From: Fimbriimonadia bacterium
GTDB lineage: Bacteria > Armatimonadota > Fimbriimonadia > Fimbriimonadales > Fimbriimonadaceae
NCBI GenBank assembly: GCA_030430755.1
Contig: JAUIKO010000003.1
Span: 1 to 64,000, forward strand
DNA length: 64,000 nucleotides
Direction of reading: 5' to 3'
The notes below the pieces were generated by a model. The model did no database searches. It was not told the origin of the DNA and saw only the letters and a list, made by a program, of their open reading frames with translations. This document shows, piece after piece, positions 15,465 through 62,155 of this stretch. A program made the translations under genes and the position numbers. Position 1 is the first letter of the stretch. Each line of letters opens with the position of its first letter.

Positions 15465-17246
15465 TCACGAAAACTCTACTTTATGCTTTTTAAACTTCTC
15501 TATGTAGGCAGTTCTAGTTTCTTCATCTTTCTGATTAACTTTTACGGTAAGAACATTTTTTCTTTTAACCCAGTCTGGTACTTTATCATTATCTGTTTCT
15601 TGATTAGGCTTTTTATTTTTACCACTTTTCTCAGGTTCTATAAATAGAATATTCTCTGCTGAAAGAGCATTGCAATTTCTTAAATCTAGCCAGCTTAAAT
15701 GTTCAATCTTTCCCATATCTAAATGTCTGATATTCAGATCTCCAACCAGATCTAAATTCTGTAATTCCGAGACATCTTTTAGGATTAATGAGGTGAGCTC
15801 TGGACATCGTATCAAACGTATCGTGGTTAATTTAGGGCAATAATCAGAACGTACAGAAGTCAACTTTGTGCAATCTTGAAGTATGATGGAATATAACTCT
15901 AAACAATAATTCGCATTTAAATCAAATGTATCACATTTTTTTAACTTTATTTCTTTAATGTTCTTATGATGATCTACATTTATAGACCAAATTGAACCGC
16001 ACTCTTCTAATTCAATAAATTCAAGATTTGGGCATTCCATCAAATTTAACTCAGGAACATCAGAACAGATACGTAAACTGATTTTTCTTAACCCAGCACA
16101 GTTCATCAATTTAACTTGATTTAAATGAGGACTCCTCGTAATATTTATTTCATAAACTCCTGATGAGTCTGTTAAATCAAGAGATTCTAATGGAGAATTA
16201 TCTACCAATACAACCTTACAACTTCCTCTCTGATTTTTCAACAAAATAGAAGATAATGCTCTCATATGGCTTAATTTCAATACCAATGTACAATCAGAAT
16301 CTCCACACTCTAACTGCTCCAAAGTTTCGAATTCAAAAAAATCAAGATTCATATTGTATCTACTCTCTTTTATACTTAGCTTATACAGCTTATGTAACGT
16401 TTTTAGTAGAACTGAAATGATATTTTCACAATCTGTAGAAGAAGTCTGCAGACTATAACCTAAAGAGATAAAATCATTTTCTATTGAAGAATCTAAAAAG
16501 TTTGATCCACCTAGAAACAATTCTTCTAAAGATCCTTTTACAGCAGAAAAGATATTTTTCCATGTTTGAACATTCAAATCTAAATCTTCTAAATATAGTT
16601 TTTTTAGATCTCTGTATCGTATAAATCGCTCAGCTTCTTCACCAAAATAATTAGAACCTCTTAAATTCAAGGAAGTCACTGATGATGAAATTGCTTGCAT
16701 AACACGCATCCAATCCTCTGAAAATAAGCGACAATTTTTCAAGTTTATTTCTTCTAAACAATTTAATTCTAACCATTTATCTATACATTGACCTCGGTAA
16801 TTAGAATTGGCTAAATTTAATTGCTTAACGTTCTCAGAAATGCCATGAAAAGCTTCCGCCCATTCCTCAGAGTTAAGTTTTTTTTCAAAAAAAGATCCTT
16901 CTTCTCTTTTTGGAGAGATTATAGTTCTAGTATCTTGGAATGATAAGTTCGGATTATCTGTAGAGTCTAACGGGCATCCTGCACTGCTACCATCTAAAAG
17001 CTGTTTAGATATTTCAGAAGATGTAGGCTGTATATGAGTATGAAGCATGGAGAATAGAGACTTACGCGGATTTAAGGGTTCTGATTTACTCGCTTGAGTT
17101 GCCTCAACACTTATATTCGTATCCTCTAAAGCACTGCCCTGTTGAACTCCACTCATATTCTGATCAGATACAGCAAAAGAAACAACATTCGATAGTAGAA
17201 TGTTTACCAGAATAATATACGACTTTATAAGTTTGACATCAATCAT
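15465..17246 (-). CDS. Secreted leucine-rich-repeat protein
   Basis: Starting at the ATG at 17246 gives a signal peptide (MIDVKLIKSYIILVNILLSNVVSFA). An ATG at 17303 would add 19 residues in front of it, which is unusual for an exported protein. About 130 mostly polar residues follow, then LRR units from roughly residue 150 to 560. The C-terminal units have a 20-24-residue period and carry a cysteine at the N-position, for example LNLMECPNLEFIELEECGSI and IRLIRCPELTSLILKDV. Such cysteine-type LRRs bind proteins and resemble eukaryotic F-box LRRs. In a host-associated bacterium it could be a secreted or surface interaction protein. The protein ends with a lysine-rich tail (KKNKPNQETDNDK-like). 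Confidence 0.75.
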   Translation of the reverse strand: MIDVKLIKSYIILVNILLSNVVSFAVSDQNMSGVQQGSALEDTNISVEATQASKSEPLNPRKSLFSMLHTHIQPTSSEISKQLLDGSSAGCPLDSTDNPNLSFQDTRTIISPKREEGSFFEKKLNSEEWAEAFHGISENVKQLNLANSNYRGQCIDKWLELNCLEEINLKNCRLFSEDWMRVMQAISSSVTSLNLRGSNYFGEEAERFIRYRDLKKLYLEDLDLNVQTWKNIFSAVKGSLEELFLGGSNFLDSSIENDFISLGYSLQTSSTDCENIISVLLKTLHKLYKLSIKESRYNMNLDFFEFETLEQLECGDSDCTLVLKLSHMRALSSILLKNQRGSCKVVLVDNSPLESLDLTDSSGVYEINITRSPHLNQVKLMNCAGLRKISLRICSDVPELNLMECPNLEFIELEECGSIWSINVDHHKNIKEIKLKKCDTFDLNANYCLELYSIILQDCTKLTSVRSDYCPKLTTIRLIRCPELTSLILKDVSELQNLDLVGDLNIRHLDMGKIEHLSWLDLRNCNALSAENILFIEPEKSGKNKKPNQETDNDKVPDWVKRKNVLTVKVNQKDEETRTAYIEKFKKHKVEFS

Positions 17247-17370
17247 ACGTCTATGAATATATTGGATAGCACTTATATCGATTTGTGTGTTTATTAAATG
17301 CATAACTAAAAATTATTATTAACGAACAGTTTAGTTTAAATTACCTTAAAATGGCCAAAAAGATAAAGAA

Positions 17371-17477: not shown

Positions 17478-17828
17478 TTATTGTCCGGAACTTATATCTG
17501 CTGCTGTCTTAGCTTCGTCCGCTGCTTCTTTTGCTGCTGCTAAGGCTTCCTCTGCTGCTTTAACTTTCTGTTCTGCTTCTGCTACTGCATTTTTAGTTAC
17601 AGCATCTGCACCTTCTGCTTCAGCTGCTGTCTTAGCTTCGTCCGCTGCTTCTTTTGCCGCTGCTAAGGCTTCCTCTGCTGCTTTAACTTTCTGTTCTGCT
17701 TCTGCTACTTCAGTACCTGAACCAGTAGTTACCTCTTTGTCTGTACCTTCTGTATCGTCCTTATCACCAAATAACCAACATCCAGTGGTACCTACAACTA
17801 ATCCTAATAATAGTAAAATTTTCTTCAT
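17478..17828 (-). CDS. Small alanine-rich repeat lipoprotein
   Basis: A 116-residue lipoprotein: MKKILLLLGLVVGTTGC has a clear lipobox (TTGC, lipidated Cys17). The mature chain starts with a short Thr/Asp/Gly linker and then holds two identical 29-residue blocks (beginning VAEAEQKVKAAEE, ending EAKTAA) separated by twelve residues. Each block is an Ala/Glu/Lys heptad-like helix, so it probably forms a long coiled rod anchored in the membrane, like Lpp-type or spacer lipoproteins. A strong AGGAG site precedes the ATG at 17828. No enzyme motif is present. Confidence 0.75.
   Translation of the reverse strand: MKKILLLLGLVVGTTGCWLFGDKDDTEGTDKEVTTGSGTEVAEAEQKVKAAEEALAAAKEAADEAKTAAEAEGADAVTKNAVAEAEQKVKAAEEALAAAKEAADEAKTAADISSGQ
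17500..17709. repeat. Two 87-bp direct repeats, 123-bp period, within the lipoprotein gene
   Basis: Segments 17500-17586 and 17623-17709 are identical except for one base (gctgctgct versus gccgctgct). They encode the duplicated 29-residue helix. The near-identity at the DNA level means a recent duplication or continued gene conversion. Confidence 0.85.
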
Positions 17829-17950: not shown

Positions 17951-18871
17951 CTATGCTGCTTGATTATAGCAAGATGATAAATAAACCTGATGAACCTTTG
18001 AGCTTGACCTTTTTCCTAAACTATTCAATAGATTTTCACTTGCCCATACGATTTTTTCTAAATCGACTCCATGTTTATACCCCGATCTAGTTAAAAAATA
18101 CATTAAATCTTCCGTTGCTAAATTTCCTGAAGCGCCCGGTGCATAAGGACACCCACCAAGACCACCACTGCTTGAATCAAATCTACGCACACCTAACTGA
18201 ATCGATCTAGCCACATTTGCAATAGCCATACCGTATGTATCGTGAAAGTGACAACTAATTTGTGAAGCAGGAAGCGCCGTTAACATTAATTCAAGCATGT
18301 TCCCTACTTCATCTGGAGTAGCCACGCCTGTAGTATCACTCATAACTAGATCATCTACACCTAGATCGATTAATCGTTTTGATACCTCTAAGGTCTTGCA
18401 AGGATCGACTTTCCCTGTAAACGGACATTCAAAGCAGTTGCTAAGGTAAATTCGAATCCAAGATGCGGGCACATTTCTTCTAAATTCTGGAATGAGTTCA
18501 CTATATTCTTGAATAATGTTTTCTACAGGAGCATTCATGTTTTTCATCGAAAAAGCATCACTTGTGGTTGTAAAAAGAGCTATTCTGGATATGTTATATT
18601 GATAAGCTTTGGCCAAACCTTTTTTATTTGGTATTAAAACATGATACTTAATGGAAGCATGATCTAATTCATTTTTTAATTGATGTACAATGGATTCAGC
18701 ATCTGATAACTGAGGGACCCATTTAGGGGATACAAAACTCGTGATCTCTATCTCCTTTAACCCAGAACTTATAAGATTTCTTATGTATTCTATTTTCACT
18801 CCCGTCGGTATCGGTTTTTGTTCATTTTGTAGCCCATCCCTAGGACCTACCTCAATAATATCAATATCCAT
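17951..18871 (-). CDS. mvaB: Hydroxymethylglutaryl-CoA lyase
   Basis: Cleaves HMG-CoA to acetoacetate and acetyl-CoA, the last step of leucine breakdown. The family's marks are all visible: the catalytic Arg-Asp in EVGPRDGLQNE at residue 7, metal-binding histidines in SCHFHDTYG near residue 210, and the active-site cysteine loop GGLGGCPYAPGASGNLATED near residue 243. The length of 306 residues is normal for the bacterial enzyme. It starts two bases after the biotin carrier protein gene, so the two form an operon. That pairing suggests a methylcrotonyl-CoA carboxylase pathway, although the carboxylase subunits themselves are not in this window. Confidence 0.93.
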   Translation of the reverse strand: MDIDIIEVGPRDGLQNEQKPIPTGVKIEYIRNLISSGLKEIEITSFVSPKWVPQLSDAESIVHQLKNELDHASIKYHVLIPNKKGLAKAYQYNISRIALFTTTSDAFSMKNMNAPVENIIQEYSELIPEFRRNVPASWIRIYLSNCFECPFTGKVDPCKTLEVSKRLIDLGVDDLVMSDTTGVATPDEVGNMLELMLTALPASQISCHFHDTYGMAIANVARSIQLGVRRFDSSSGGLGGCPYAPGASGNLATEDLMYFLTRSGYKHGVDLEKIVWASENLLNSLGKRSSSKVHQVYLSSCYNQAA

Positions 18872-18873
18872 CG

Positions 18874-19356
18874 TTATAAGTTATCGGTAGAATCAGGCAA
18901 TATTTCAACTATTACGCTACCCTCTTGCACCAAATCTCCTGACTTAACTGATAATTTTGCTACTGTGCCATCAAAAGGAGCTCTCATCGTCTGTTGCGTC
19001 TTCATGGCTTCGATAACGAGCAATTTATCTCCTTCATGAACCTTCTGATCATTTTCAATAAAAACTTCTACCACTTGAGCTGGCAATGGAGAGACGAATA
19101 CCCCTCCCTTCTTTCCTTTATTATTATTACGAGCTAGATTTTCTTCTTCAATTGTATATACCCTTCCATCATAAGATAGCAGAACTTTTCCTGCAGTTTT
19201 CACACCTATACCACTCTTAACTCCGGATGAGGTTTTAACATAATATCGCAAATTGAAACTTGTTGCTATACTCTGATCTTCTTCTTCTAATGTAACCTGC
19301 ACACCATTTATTAAAACTTTTTTTGTTTTTTTCTCCATACGCATCTCATCCCCCAT
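18874..19356 (-). CDS. Biotin carboxyl carrier protein (acyl-CoA carboxylase type)
   Basis: The C-terminal 75 residues are a biotinyl domain with the biotinylation motif EAMKTQ (lysine near residue 118) and the preceding SPLPAQVVEVFIENDQKV fold. The first 80 residues resemble the linker and BT-type region found before the carrier domain in propionyl- or methylcrotonyl-CoA carboxylases. Biotin on the lysine carries CO2 between the two carboxylase active sites. Three in-frame ATGs are close together (19356, 19344, 19338), and a GGGGGA lies just before the second. It is in an operon with HMG-CoA lyase. A phased array of 11-bp repeats starts five bases upstream. Confidence 0.85.
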   Translation of the reverse strand: MGDEMRMEKKTKKVLINGVQVTLEEEDQSIATSFNLRYYVKTSSGVKSGIGVKTAGKVLLSYDGRVYTIEEENLARNNNKGKKGGVFVSPLPAQVVEVFIENDQKVHEGDKLLVIEAMKTQQTMRAPFDGTVAKLSVKSGDLVQEGSVIVEILPDSTDNL

Positions 19357-19360
19357 ATGT

Positions 19361-19437
19361 TTACCTAGTATTTACCTAGTATTTACCTAGTATTTATCTA
19401 GTATTTATCTAGTATTTATCTAGTATTCACCTAGTAT
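19361..19437 (-). repeat. Seven tandem 11-bp repeats upstream of the biotin carrier gene
   Basis: On the plus strand the unit is TTACCTAGTAT (3 copies), then TTATCTAGTAT (3 copies), then TCACCTAGTAT (1 copy), without gaps. The 11-bp period is close to one turn of DNA, so every CTAG core faces the same side of the helix. The array occupies the expected promoter or 5' leader of the biotin carrier gene. It could be a regulator-binding array or a slippage-prone expression switch. Confidence 0.9.
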
Positions 19438-19567
19438 TCATCACCTAAACCCTATATGCTTGTTCATGATAAATATAAACTTCTTTTTTCATACTTATTT
19501 CATCCAGGCATCTATCATATCGCCTTATTAAAGAACAGATTTATCCTTATGGGTTATATAATTATCT

Positions 19568-20302
19568 TTAAAAGGAGATCTTATCCATCTGCTTAGTTTC
19601 TCTGTAATCCATAGATTTTTGAATAAAAGTATGAAAGAGATTTCGATTTTCAGGATAGGATAATGATCTTTCTGCATGCCATTGAACACCTACCATCCAT
19701 GCATAATCTAAATGTTCTATTCCTTCTATCGTTCCATCTGGATGAACAGCATTTACTCTAAATCGATCCGCAACCTGATCGATAGATTGGTGATGATAAC
19801 TGTTCCCTGTCACAATATTCTTTTGCATGGCATGATAGAGCTTTGTTCCTTGTAACACTTCGTATGTTTGATCTTGATTTTGATGATGTTTTTCATGTCC
19901 TACTATTTCAGGAGTATGTTGATGTAATGTTCCAGAAAAATATGTATTCATAAATTGACACCCGTAACATATTCCAAGAACAGGCATTTCTATAGGGAGA
20001 AGATCAAATATTCTTTTCTCTAACTCATACCGAGAATCATCCTGGACCCTGTTTTTAGGATGCATAAAAGTTTCCCCATACCTCTTTGGATGTATATCAA
20101 ATCCTCCCGTCAATAGTAAACCATCGATTACTTCTAGAATAGATTCACATTCCTCCGTATAAGGGATGAATAAAGGCACACCTCCCATTTGATTGATGGC
20201 CTCCACATAGTTCCAAGATAAAGTAAACTTTCCACCTGTAAAATGAGTGGGATCTTTTACACTTTCAGATGTAATTCCTATGATGGGTCTTTTTTGCTTC
20301 AT
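19568..20302 (-). CDS. Class I glutamine-amidotransferase-like hydrolase (PuuD/peptidase C26 family)
   Basis: A 244-residue enzyme with the triad Cys-His-Glu of class I amidotransferases: nucleophile in LGICYGCQFMN near residue 113, and the His and Glu in VQWHAERS near residue 217. The GLLLTGGFDIHPKRYGE segment near residue 62 and NSYHHQSID near residue 168 are typical of gamma-glutamyl-gamma-aminobutyrate hydrolase (PuuD), which cleaves gamma-glutamyl amides in putrescine breakdown. The usual GICRGxQ is GICYGCQ here. Specificity is uncertain; no other putrescine genes are nearby. A good AAAGGT ribosome site precedes the ATG. Confidence 0.8.
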   Translation of the reverse strand: MKQKRPIIGITSESVKDPTHFTGGKFTLSWNYVEAINQMGGVPLFIPYTEECESILEVIDGLLLTGGFDIHPKRYGETFMHPKNRVQDDSRYELEKRIFDLLPIEMPVLGICYGCQFMNTYFSGTLHQHTPEIVGHEKHHQNQDQTYEVLQGTKLYHAMQKNIVTGNSYHHQSIDQVADRFRVNAVHPDGTIEGIEHLDYAWMVGVQWHAERSLSYPENRNLFHTFIQKSMDYRETKQMDKISF

Positions 20303-20412
20303 GGATACCTTTTTGCTGGTTTCTGTTTAGAAGCATAAACAACACCGTAGTCTCCTACTTCTTTTATCTCTAAACAGGTCCTAATGTTTCTATCTAGAAT
20401 AGTCAGAACGTT

Positions 20413-21612
20413 CTAATCAGATATCATCCAATCTTCGAGGCTGATGACTAATTCTCTAATACGATTCAACATCTGAGCTGCACCTACTCCGTTAATAAAC
20501 CTATGATCAAAACTTAGAGTTAAATTCACCACAGGTTCATGTTTTACAGCATCCTCTTGAATCTTTACATCATAGTATACTTCCCCAATAAATAACGTAC
20601 CACTAGCCGGAGGCACTACAACCGGAATAGCATCTCTCACCCCAAATCCTTGCATATTACTTAAACTGAGTGTTACACTTGCATGAGCCTGATCATCACC
20701 TTCACGCGCTTTATTTATACGTTCTCGAAGTGCATGTTGATACTTACCCCATGATAATGTATCCGCTTTGTCAACAACTGCAAGTACTAAATTGTCACCA
20801 GGGATCGCAACTGCAACACCGAGATTTAAATGATCAAATTCTTTTAATTCCCAATCTTCAGTGATTGTAGATTGGAATGATTTATGCTCTTTCACAGCTT
20901 GAACAACAACATAAGAGAATAATGTAAAAGCAGAAACTTTTTCTTGACCACTCTGGTTTTGAATTTTATCTAACCTTTTCAAAACCGGCTCCCACGGACA
21001 AGCAATGCTAAGTGTAGCAGGTACAACCTGTTTTGAACCTCGAAGTAGTCTTGAGCCTAATAGTCTTTGGGATGAAGATAATTTACTCATCTGATACCCA
21101 GAATCTTCTGCAGCATTCTCTTGATTTGATGATCTGTTTTTCAACCATAGATCAATATCTTCAGGTAATAACTTGCTTCCTTTCTTAGGTATTTGATTTA
21201 ACTCTTCATCTGAAACTTGACACTGTTTAGCATAAGATCTTGTTTTTGGAGGAATATCTGTTCTTCTCGAAGATGGTGATGTAGAATCTTTTATATCGTT
21301 TTCCATCTCTTTTGCTACACTCTGCTCATCGATATCGTTATCTGATTTTTCTCCATTATCTTCAACAGAATCCTCTGTTTCAATAACCACAATATCTGCA
21401 CCTATAGGTAAAAGTTCATCATCTTCTGCAAGCCATTCAACGATTACCCCTGCATATGGAGATTCGATATCCATCACAGCTTTATCTGTTTCCATCTGGT
21501 ATACAGGCTCATCCTTTTCTATTCGCTCTCCGACTTGCTTTAATTTCCCAACAAGACGGGCTTCTTGTAAACCCTCTCCTATCTGAGGAATCTGTACTGA
21601 TATTCTTCTCAT
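20413..21612 (-). CDS. 2-oxo acid dehydrogenase E2 (lipoyl dihydrolipoamide acyltransferase)
   Basis: Domains in order: one lipoyl domain (residues 1-80) with lipoylated lysine in METDKAVMDIE; an acidic linker; a weak E1/E3-binding domain near residues 118-150 (KTRSYAKQC to LLPEDIDLWL); and the acyltransferase core from about 175, ending in LSFDHRFINGVGAAQML. In the catalytic HxxxDG motif the aspartate is replaced by asparagine (HRFING); the catalytic histidine is kept. E2 moves acyl groups to CoA in pyruvate, branched-chain or 2-oxoglutarate dehydrogenase complexes. The single lipoyl domain and the nearby leucine-pathway genes fit a branched-chain or acetoin type, but E1 and E3 genes are not in this window. 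Confidence 0.87.
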   Translation of the reverse strand: MRRISVQIPQIGEGLQEARLVGKLKQVGERIEKDEPVYQMETDKAVMDIESPYAGVIVEWLAEDDELLPIGADIVVIETEDSVEDNGEKSDNDIDEQSVAKEMENDIKDSTSPSSRRTDIPPKTRSYAKQCQVSDEELNQIPKKGSKLLPEDIDLWLKNRSSNQENAAEDSGYQMSKLSSSQRLLGSRLLRGSKQVVPATLSIACPWEPVLKRLDKIQNQSGQEKVSAFTLFSYVVVQAVKEHKSFQSTITEDWELKEFDHLNLGVAVAIPGDNLVLAVVDKADTLSWGKYQHALRERINKAREGDDQAHASVTLSLSNMQGFGVRDAIPVVVPPASGTLFIGEVYYDVKIQEDAVKHEPVVNLTLSFDHRFINGVGAAQMLNRIRELVISLEDWMISD

Positions 21613-28989: not shown

Positions 28990-30258
28990 ATGGAGTTTAA
29001 TCATATAGTCCCTGCTGAATTTACAAAGAATTTAGTAGAACTGAAATGGAATCCAAGTTCAATAAAGAGCAATATTCCTTTTAGAAAAACTGAGGGATGG
29101 CAAAGCCATGGAGGCAACTATAATAATCATCTCTGTAAAACGAATCCTAAATCTTTAGTCATTGATATTGATTCTAATGCAACGCGTATAAAACGGATAT
29201 ACTTAGTAGGAATATTTGCTTTATGGCCTAATCTAGATGAAAGCAAACATTTATTGCCTGGAGCTGTAATCTCAGGTACAAAAAATAAAGTAGATCTTTT
29301 TCAAATTGAATTATTTCATCATATTCATTATGTAGATAGTACTCTGTACCCTATCAATGGAGTACGGATTAATGGTGATGGTACCAGCTTAGAACAACTC
29401 GATACTGTTTACTGGCATATGCACCAACATAGACTTGATCTTCTAACGATCGATTTATTAGACCATCCCGTTGAAATAGATAAATTATCGTTTATTGTAT
29501 TGTCTCAATCAACTAGTTTTATTTTATTCGATGTCTTTACAGAATTTGACCATTCTTCACGTTGTCCATTTCATTCTCCAGAGAATAATCTTGTTCTATC
29601 CGAAGTATCCTCCTATATTCGGCTAGGTGATAAGATTAAATTTGATCTATGCGTAAGTGAATTACTGAAAGGAATACAGAAAATAGGTGGATCAGATATA
29701 GACACTCAACTCCTAGATGAAGCAAAAGGATCTGCATTAACCTTTATAGCTTTAATTAATTCTGCTCTCCTGGAATTAGGAGCTCCTAGATCGATACATC
29801 GGAATCAATTAGAAATAGCAAGACAACTTGATAACTTAAATCAAATTTCTGATATTATTCAATATACACAGAAAATTATTGAGCAACTTACGAAACATCT
29901 TTTTCATAAGAACTACCTAACTGGAGATCCTATCATAGATAAATGTTTAAAATATTTAGAAAGAATGTACTCTCAAGATTTAGATGATGATAAGATGGCA
30001 AGCTACCTCGATTTAAGTACTTCTCATTTTAGATTTTTATTCAAAAAAGCCATAGGTAAGCCTTTTGGCCAATACCTAAATGCTTACAGATTAGAAAAAG
30101 CTAGGTCTCTAATCATTAACTCAAATCTATCTATTTCAGATATCTGTTCTATTACAGGCTATTCTACAATGGGAAATTTCTGCAGGGCATTTAAACAAAG
30201 ATTCCAAGTACCTGCCACTACACTTAGAGAAAAGTCTGAAATAAACAGATTATCCTAA
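28990..30258 (+). CDS. AraC-family transcription regulator
   Basis: The last 100 residues (about 315-415) carry the two helix-turn-helix motifs of AraC regulators: the first at MASYLDLSTSHFRFLFKKAIG, the second with the family signature ISDICSITGYSTMGNFCRAFKQRF. The 200-residue N-terminal region is beta-rich (IKRIYLVGIFALWP to IVLSQSTSFILFDVFTEFD) and may be a jelly-roll ligand-binding domain, as in sugar-sensing AraC proteins. It follows the peptide-binding lipoprotein by 109 bases and may control it, though this is inference. A -10-like TAATTT lies seven bases before the ATG. Confidence 0.85.
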   Translation: MEFNHIVPAEFTKNLVELKWNPSSIKSNIPFRKTEGWQSHGGNYNNHLCKTNPKSLVIDIDSNATRIKRIYLVGIFALWPNLDESKHLLPGAVISGTKNKVDLFQIELFHHIHYVDSTLYPINGVRINGDGTSLEQLDTVYWHMHQHRLDLLTIDLLDHPVEIDKLSFIVLSQSTSFILFDVFTEFDHSSRCPFHSPENNLVLSEVSSYIRLGDKIKFDLCVSELLKGIQKIGGSDIDTQLLDEAKGSALTFIALINSALLELGAPRSIHRNQLEIARQLDNLNQISDIIQYTQKIIEQLTKHLFHKNYLTGDPIIDKCLKYLERMYSQDLDDDKMASYLDLSTSHFRFLFKKAIGKPFGQYLNAYRLEKARSLIINSNLSISDICSITGYSTMGNFCRAFKQRFQVPATTLREKSEINRLS

Positions 30259-57195: not shown

Positions 57196-57224
57196 TTGAA
57201 TAACAAGTAATAATAAGGTAATAA
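57196..57224 (+). promoter_or_regulatory. Promoter of the pyrophosphatase gene
   Basis: TTGAAT and TAATAA are separated by 17 bases, a good -35/-10 pair. The start codon at 57248 is preceded by an AGGT ribosome site, so this gene has an ordinary short leader. Confidence 0.45.
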
Positions 57225-57247
57225 TATACTCTGTGATAGGTGTAAAT

Positions 57248-60583: not shown

Positions 60584-62155
60584 CTAAGCACCGCTACCTT
60601 CACCATTAGCACTAGAATCACTTGAAGTTTCTACTTCTACTTCTGCAAAAGCTAATGTAGCTTCTCTAATTGCTTTTAACATACTAAATATTTCATCTTT
60701 TTTAGTATTAAACTTAGCTACTGCGGCTACATATTTTTCTGCTACTTCTCTTTCTTTTCCTACAAGATCTGCTAACTTTTTATCTTTAAGTTTTTCTTGA
60801 TTTTCTTTAGCTTTTTTAGCTCTTTCTGCCGCATTTGCAGAAGAATCCTGTCCTTGTTCGGATGCATTCTCATTTACAACTTCTTCTGAACCGGTTGAAT
60901 CATCACCTGATTTCACTTCAACTTGCGTTCCACCTTCACTATTGGATCCTGTTTCGCCGGAATTATCATCAAGCGATTCTACTCCAACTTGCGTTCCACC
61001 TTGACTATCAGATCCTGTTTCGCCGGTAATAGTCATATGTCCATCACTTTTGTCAACACCTTTATCTGCCATTTTTTCTTTATCTTCAGCAGTTGTTGTT
61101 TCCATGGTTACTTCACCAGGTTTGTCATTACCACTAACAGGAGTTGGTTCTTCTTTCTTTTCTTCAGTGACATCTTTTTTTGCTTCTTCAGAATCTGTTG
61201 TCGTTTCTGTACTAGCATCACCAGAGCCAGATGCCGTTTCTAAGTTTAAAACTTCTTCTTCTTTTGTATCAACAGAACCACTTGAATCACCTAAGCTTAA
61301 TCCACTTTCTTCTTTAGTATCACCAGAGTTTGTTGTTGTGTCACCTAAACTGATTCCTGTTTCAGCACTTGCATCACCAGAATCATTGGAAGTAGCTACT
61401 CCGCCTAAGTCTAAACCACCTTCAGCACTAGCATCACCAGAACCTGATAAATCACCTAAACTTAATCCACTTTCTTCTTTAGTATCACCAGAGTTTGTTG
61501 TTGTGTCACCTAAACTGATTCCTGTTTCAGCACTTGTATCACCAGAATCATTGGAAGTAGCTGCTCCGCCTAAGTCTAAACCACCTTCAGCACTAGCATC
61601 ACCAGAACCTGATAAATCACCTAAACTTAATCCACTTTCTTCTTTAGTATCACCAGAACCACTTCCATCGCCTAAACTGATTCCAGTTTCAGCACTAGCA
61701 TCACCTAGGCTTAATCCAGTATCTGCACTTGAATCGCCTAAACTGATTCCAGTTTCAGCAGTAGCATTACCAGAGTCACTAGAATCATCTAGGTTTAATC
61801 CAGTATCTGCACTGGCATCACCAGAACCTGATGAATCACCTAAATTTAATCCAGTATCTGCACTGACATCACCAGAACCGGTTGTGGAGTCGCCTAAACT
61901 GATTCCACTTTCTTCTTTTGCATCACCGGAACCACTCGTGTCACCACCTAAAAATAGTTCATCTGAACCACTAGTATTATTAGAATCAGTTCCACCTAGC
62001 ATGCTCATTAAATCGCCTAGCGTATCATCCTCTACTCTAGTAGAATAACCCGCTATACTAGACTTACCTGCATTAGATCCTCCACAACCTGTTAATGCTA
62101 CTGCTGCTGCTAAACCAAATAAAGGTAAACTGTACTTCTTTGCAAATTGTTTCAT
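60584..62155 (-). CDS. Repetitive acidic surface lipoprotein
   Basis: Lipoprotein signal LFGLAAAVALTGCGGS with lipidated cysteine at residue 23 and a good GGAGA ribosome site. Residues about 55-310 consist of repeats of the theme SGD-x-x-AETG(I/L)SLGD, rich in Ser, Gly, Asp and Thr. They include two nearly identical 55-residue units and part of a third. Residues 310-440 are an acidic Glu/Thr-rich stretch with two similar GETGS-x-S-x-GGTQV motifs. The last 90 residues are a charged helix (AERAKKAKENQEKLKDKKLAD). Low-complexity, anchored and extended, it is a likely surface stalk or adhesin-like protein, prone to length variation. Confidence 0.8.
   Translation of the reverse strand: MKQFAKKYSLPLFGLAAAVALTGCGGSNAGKSSIAGYSTRVEDDTLGDLMSMLGGTDSNNTSGSDELFLGGDTSGSGDAKEESGISLGDSTTGSGDVSADTGLNLGDSSGSGDASADTGLNLDDSSDSGNATAETGISLGDSSADTGLSLGDASAETGISLGDGSGSGDTKEESGLSLGDLSGSGDASAEGGLDLGGAATSNDSGDTSAETGISLGDTTTNSGDTKEESGLSLGDLSGSGDASAEGGLDLGGVATSNDSGDASAETGISLGDTTTNSGDTKEESGLSLGDSSGSVDTKEEEVLNLETASGSGDASTETTTDSEEAKKDVTEEKKEEPTPVSGNDKPGEVTMETTTAEDKEKMADKGVDKSDGHMTITGETGSDSQGGTQVGVESLDDNSGETGSNSEGGTQVEVKSGDDSTGSEEVVNENASEQGQDSSANAAERAKKAKENQEKLKDKKLADLVGKEREVAEKYVAAVAKFNTKKDEIFSMLKAIREATLAFAEVEVETSSDSSANGEGSGA
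61290..61660. repeat. 165-bp tandem repeats in the surface lipoprotein gene
   Basis: Blocks beginning near 61291, 61456 and 61621 repeat with an exact offset of 165 bases (55 codons): two full copies with few differences and a partial third. Shorter repeats of 30-45 bases with the same theme continue to about 61930. The period is a multiple of three, so gain or loss of units keeps the frame. Confidence 0.85.

Follow-up and report, generated by a model that had tools for sequence, protein, structure and literature searches.

Tandem repeats in the gaps between bacterial genes are known from several systems. The Wolbachia arrays VNTR-105 and VNTR-141 are intergenic and are attributed to slipped-strand mispairing in PMC3287509, which also cites intergenic repeats of the same kind in Ehrlichia ruminantium. 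MacGregor (2015; PMC4679880) reports direct repeats of the heptamer TAACTGA upstream of start codons, with 169 sets in one genome, and describes two Bacteroidetes with long arrays in gaps that are shorter and free of obvious repeats in close relatives. Promoter tandem repeats of M. tuberculosis, one of them with a unit of 54–56 bp, have been shown to change in copy number (PMC12817950), and PhoB is described as binding direct repeats in tandem (PMC3348028).

Here, we analyze an 11-bp repeat array in front of a biotin carrier gene, within a stretch of 64,000 nucleotides referred to as the window. The array is an intergenic tandem repeat (minisatellite or putative VNTR): near-identical copies stand head to tail, beyond chance expectation, in noncoding DNA. 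Like the Wolbachia arrays, it is tandem and lies in an intergenic gap, but the Wolbachia units are 105 and 141 bp long and contain hairpins (PMC3287509), compared with 11 bp here. It shares with the TAACTGA repeats a short direct unit close before a start codon; those repeats, however, have a 7-bp unit and 169 sets in one genome (PMC4679880), whereas this unit has 11 bp of a different sequence and its two-unit pattern occurs at one place. The M. tuberculosis repeats are likewise tandem and upstream of genes, although there they are described as promoter repeats (PMC12817950). One literature search, narrowly framed on an 11-bp tandem repeat upstream of a start codon, found no paper.

Results

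Structure of the Array

The array consists of seven contiguous 11-bp units at 19360–19436 on the minus strand (plus-strand form TTTACCTAGTA). The initial annotation placed seven contiguous repeats at 19361–19437, and their number and contiguity are confirmed. The units follow the pattern TACTAG(G/A)T(A/G)AA, and 73 of the 77 array bases match the consensus; TRF reports 19360–19438 with 7.2 copies and a score of 130. Along the minus strand, from upstream to downstream, one copy of TACTAGGTGAA is followed by three of TACTAGATAAA and three of TACTAGGTAAA, so that TACTA is continued by GGTGAA once, by GATAAA three times, and by GGTAAA three times. The variants stand in blocks (G-AAA-GGG), and all differences between units are transitions, as expected from the C/T and T/C changes that had been noted between blocks. 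Across 60 dinucleotide shuffles of the 64 kb, the highest TRF score was 79 and the mean of the maxima was 49, a comparison that excludes a chance origin of the array. A coding repeat was also ruled out, as all six frames of the array contain stop codons.

Each unit carries CTAG, a tetramer that had been described as usually rare in bacterial genomes. It is not rare in the window, where CTAG occurs 177 times (seven of them in the array) against 177.0 expected from the window's 3-mers; the count is somewhat low relative to dinucleotide shuffles (207 ± 12, with 177 or more in 99 of 100 shuffles). Because the count is close to the 3-mer expectation, the presence of CTAG in every unit carries little weight.

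Operon Context and Relatives

The array fills the last third of a 211-bp spacer (19357–19567, minus strand) between a Peptidase C26/class I glutamine amidotransferase-like gene (19568–20302, minus; PF07722, E = 1.6e-49) and the first ATG of a 160-aa biotin/lipoyl carrier ORF (18874–19356, minus). The latter matches the biotin_lipoyl family (PF00364, E = 2.2e-15), which confirms the carrier gene proposed downstream of the repeats. An HMG-CoA-lyase-like (HMGL-like) gene follows after 2 bp (17951–18871, minus; PF00682, E = 6.3e-44), and the C26-type gene is itself preceded by a 2-oxoacid dehydrogenase acyltransferase (E2) gene (20413–21612, minus; PF00198, E = 4.6e-34). Given this operon, the array is most likely part of the carrier gene's transcribed leader. 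A 15-codon ORF (MKKEVYIYHEQAYRV; 19445–19492, minus), read from the sequence, ends just before the array and is probably meaningless.

Other features of the neighborhood were recorded in passing. The gap between the E2 and C26-type genes (20303–20412) is 110 bp here and 18 bp in the same-genus relative, and no tandem repeat was reported in it. Two minus-strand ORFs farther along have no Pfam match at E 0.001: a lipoprotein-like ORF of 116 aa that contains an internal duplication (AEAEQKVKAAEEALAAAKEAADEAKTAA; 17478–17828) and a 612-aa protein that looks leucine-rich-repeat-like by eye (15465–17303).

The carrier protein was searched for in 101 genomes, its own included, and 95 matched; loci were examined in 29 of the 94 matching relatives. 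A C26-type gene directly precedes the carrier gene in 27 of these 29, all 27 from the same family, while the loci of L027 and L036, from another family of the same order, gave no C26 match. The E2 gene lies within the fetched stretch in 25 of the 29. The C26/carrier junction is closed in 26 of the 27 family relatives examined, the exception being the same-genus relative (G001), whose gap measures 32 bases and is free of short-period repeats. By automatic start choice, 13 of the 27 have a stop/start overlap of 4 bases and two an overlap of 16 bases, and the first start lies 8 bases past the stop in two more; in nine, the choice ran 65–115 bases back into the C26 gene and is untrustworthy. When the position of the third carrier ATG is extrapolated from the alignment to the 26 relatives other than G001, it lies within the end of the C26 gene in every one of them (−19 to −32).

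The two-unit pattern (at most one mismatch) was present in 1 of 85 family genomes, the array's own; neither the same-genus relative nor any of the remaining 83 showed it. The spacer is opened in this genus, as represented by two genomes (the array's own assembly being 97.66% complete), and the array is seen in its own genome only. TRF on the G001 locus reported a single repeat, outside the 32-base gap: a 147-bp tandem duplication with 95% matches (L008, 211–497) that contains GTCATTCCGGAACGGAATCC and sits just downstream of the HMG-CoA-lyase-like gene. We also considered that the spacer might be a remnant of the start of the carrier gene and rejected this, as the carrier N-terminus is complete relative to the same-genus protein.

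Further Copies and Other Arrays

The initial annotation had proposed looking for the unit elsewhere in the genome. With up to three mismatches, the two-unit pattern had no place in its own genome besides the array. A looser pattern with three mismatches gave one weak further place each in the array's own genome (G000) and in G001, compared with 1 and 2 for the reversed control. Single units outside the array (at most one mismatch) numbered nine in the window, against about eight expected, and an exact 28-base pattern was absent from viral contigs. A dispersed element was rejected, with no second copy of the array or the spacer in the genome. The spacer's best other matches in the genome were 81% over 42 bases (E = 0.003) and 77% over 48 bases (E = 0.02); by eye, neither is a tandem array, and the 81% match holds two loose CTAGTATT-like copies.

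We sampled 344 kb of the 1,478-kb genome (23%) for arrays that lie outside ORFs of 100 aa and reach 2.5 copies or more. The sample held 10, including this one, with periods of 5, 9, 10, 10, 11, 11, 15, 15, 15, and 18; there is no clear preference for period 11 among them. The studied array was the strongest (score 130; next 101) and shares its 11-bp period with one other, a weak one. Gaps of 211 bp or more between co-directional ORFs are frequent in this genome (33 of 167; in the G001 sample, 24 of 119), as counted by a rough rule based on ATG ORFs of at least 100 aa, which overstates gaps.

Repeats elsewhere in the window include an intergenic array at 57199–57226 (AATAATAAG-like, about 2.7 copies, period 10–11) that ends 7 bp before the first start (GTG) of a 1071-aa ORF at 57233 and so is another short repeat beside a possible start. 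At 60584–62155 (minus), a 523-aa ORF with a lipoprotein-like N-terminus contains long degenerate repeats (SLGDSSGSGDASAETGI-like), among them a 165-bp unit present in 2.3 copies that match at 98%.

Start Codon and Leader RNA

The carrier ORF has in-frame ATGs at 19356, 19344, and 19338, which lie 3, 15, and 21 bp from the array. The N-terminus of the same-genus protein (MQKKNEVLINN, compared with MEKKTKKVLING) coincides with the third of these. Among leader matches to a generic anti-Shine-Dalgarno (anti-SD) tail, GGGGGATGA at 19346–19354 (minus) is the strongest (−8.9 kcal/mol), and it precedes the ATGs at 19344 and 19338; the match before the first ATG reaches −4.0 kcal/mol. Homology and the ribosome-binding match thus favor 19344 or 19338 as the likelier starts, which would put the array 15–21 bp from the start and the ribosome-binding stretch outside it. 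The original description of the array as directly abutting the start codon region fits the first ATG and does not fit these two.

A search for 16S found none in the assembly, and the same search also failed in 5 of 14 control genomes. The genome shows a modest SD signal, with 36% of 244 ORF starts, compared with 24% of background, at anti-SD energies of −4 or lower. The first unit of the array, like the stretch preceding it, matches the anti-SD tail well (−6.7 to −8.0 kcal/mol), and AGGU is kept in the three start-proximal units; the three middle units are without AGG. Unpairedness is only a little higher in the array (0.52) than in the remainder of the leader (0.45). Rfam gave no match in 18000–21000 at E values up to 1, and the predicted fold of the leader RNA was not convincing (z = −1.77; 12 of 200 shuffles as good).

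Curvature, Promoter, and Regulator Searches

DNA has a helical repeat of 10.5 bp per turn, so an 11-bp period shifts each unit by 17°, and by 103° from first to last; the unit cores do not share one face of the helix, as had been assumed. With Bolshoy wedge angles, the array has a predicted bend of 130° over 78 bp, which exceeds the values of roughly 1,600 windows taken from the 64 kb and of all 500 shuffled versions of the array itself. Random 11-mers of the window tiled to 78 bp average 66°, and 1.1% of them reach 130°. In a model with the AA wedge only, the array bends by 69°, which 32% of tiled 11-mers equal. The DNA bending first suggested is therefore predicted by one wedge model, and the modeled curvature follows mainly from the period.

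A two-hexamer sigma70 scan of 18800–20400 gave five promoter-like sites, none in the spacer, compared with 6.6 expected by chance, and a terminator scan of the same region gave one terminator-like site, outside the spacer. On the gene's strand, the spacer has six isolated −10-like words (5 of 6 positions), two of which follow a 4-of-6 −35-like word at a distance of 15 bases. TATAAT itself is absent from that strand of the spacer and occurs once on the other. It occurs at 1.7 per kb in 53 divergent gaps versus 1.0 in convergent gaps, and nothing clearer emerged as a genome promoter motif from six-letter word enrichment, which covered only divergent gaps of at least 60 bases. A weak promoter may lie in the spacer, though −10-like words are expected in AT-rich DNA and consensus scans are weak evidence. 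Of the two placements originally offered for the array, promoter or leader, the leader is likely, and a promoter finds no support in these scans.

The direct repeats of the Pho box have an 11-bp spacing, and the BirA operator is an inverted repeat bound by a biotin ligase with an N-terminal DNA-binding domain. The array consists of direct repeats, and the best-scoring biotin ligase has the ligase domain only by Pfam (a second, weaker match is L087). Pho box and OmpR-family operators resemble the array in being direct repeats in tandem (PMC3348028). Unlike them, it stands at a single locus with only a putative promoter, and the OmpR/PhoB-type DNA-binding domain PF00486 was found neither in its own genome (97.66% complete) nor in G001, while 10 of 14 control genomes were positive. 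Receiver domains had three matches, two above the cut-off: L088 stands alone, L089 has a GerE output domain, making it a response regulator of the GerE/NarL type, and L090 is below the cut-off. The ORF at 28990–30258 matches the PocR, AryK, and RhaS models, which are of the AraC type, below their curated cut-offs. Other regulator classes thus exist, and a regulator in general is conceivable, but a dedicated binding array is unlikely. The cooperative regulator envisaged initially finds no support in a two-unit pattern that has no other close match in the genome and is absent from 84 family genomes, nor in the search for PF00486.

Discussion

We believe, with fair though not full confidence, that the array is a lineage-specific slippage minisatellite in a spacer opened inside an old operon. 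Replication slippage would have been seeded by two similar neighboring stretches, TTTAGGTGATGAA and TACTAGGTGAA, which are still visible at the upstream edge. Later duplications may then have spread the A variant and after it the G variant, giving the G-AAA-GGG order; duplication would leave variants in blocks. The array would be transcribed within the leader and would have no dedicated reader; it would be tolerated because the ribosome-binding stretch that the gene has retained lies downstream of the repeats. A slippage minisatellite in a newly opened spacer explains the place of the array, its single occurrence, its variant blocks, and the mixed periods of the other arrays. The absence of a partner and of conservation suggests that it is probably near-neutral. 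Against this reading stand its rank as the strongest sampled intergenic array, its position near a start codon, where reported functional repeats lie, a curvature that only about 1% of tiled 11-mers reach in one model, and the −10-like words of the spacer, which may mark a weak promoter.

The alternatives give the array a function. It could serve as a translational leader, an AU-rich, stop-rich, open standby stretch offering repeated weak AGGU to ribosomes or protein S1 after coupling to C26 was lost. The opened junction, the anti-SD matches of the first unit and its preceding stretch, the AGGU of the start-proximal units, and the modest SD signal of the genome are consistent with this, as is the translational role that MacGregor (2015; PMC4679880) suggests for TAACTGA repeats just 5′ of start codons. 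The middle units without AGG argue against it, as do an unpairedness barely above that of the leader, a best ribosome-binding match between the array and the likelier ATGs, and the absence of the array from the same-genus relative, and we regard such a role as unlikely. A modest effect on translation is nevertheless possible. The bolder version, in which the array took over as the ribosome landing stretch once stop/start coupling was lost and slippage now sets carrier expression independently of the preceding gene, strikes us as quite doubtful. At the DNA level, the array could act as an operator or as a curved part of a promoter, with helically repeated sites through which a cooperative regulator would control a promoter inside the spacer. 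The near-helical period, the 130° bend, the −10-like words, and the tandem direct repeats bound by PhoB (PMC3348028) point that way. They are set against a spacer free of two-hexamer sigma70-like matches, genomes in which PF00486 was not found, a scanned response regulator of GerE/NarL type, a scanned biotin ligase without a DNA-binding domain, a pattern with no other close copy, and a bend that is mostly a by-product of the period, all of which make this reading improbable indeed. Finally, frequent copy-number change could act as a phase-variable switch that adjusts how strongly the biotin carrier and HMG-CoA-lyase-like genes are expressed. M. tuberculosis promoter tandem repeats vary in copy number within cultures (PMC12817950), intergenic VNTRs vary between Wolbachia strains (PMC3287509), and a change in copy number would be plausible for an array like this one. 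The target, however, looks metabolic rather than like a surface structure, and any promoter in or beside the array is putative; of all the readings, we give this one the least credence.

As an array whose length may differ between strains, it is a candidate length marker for telling strains of the species apart. If neutral, it would be a small example of a small genome opening a spacer in a conserved operon that was then filled by slippage. If translation is affected, the case would illustrate the replacement of translational coupling by a repeat array.
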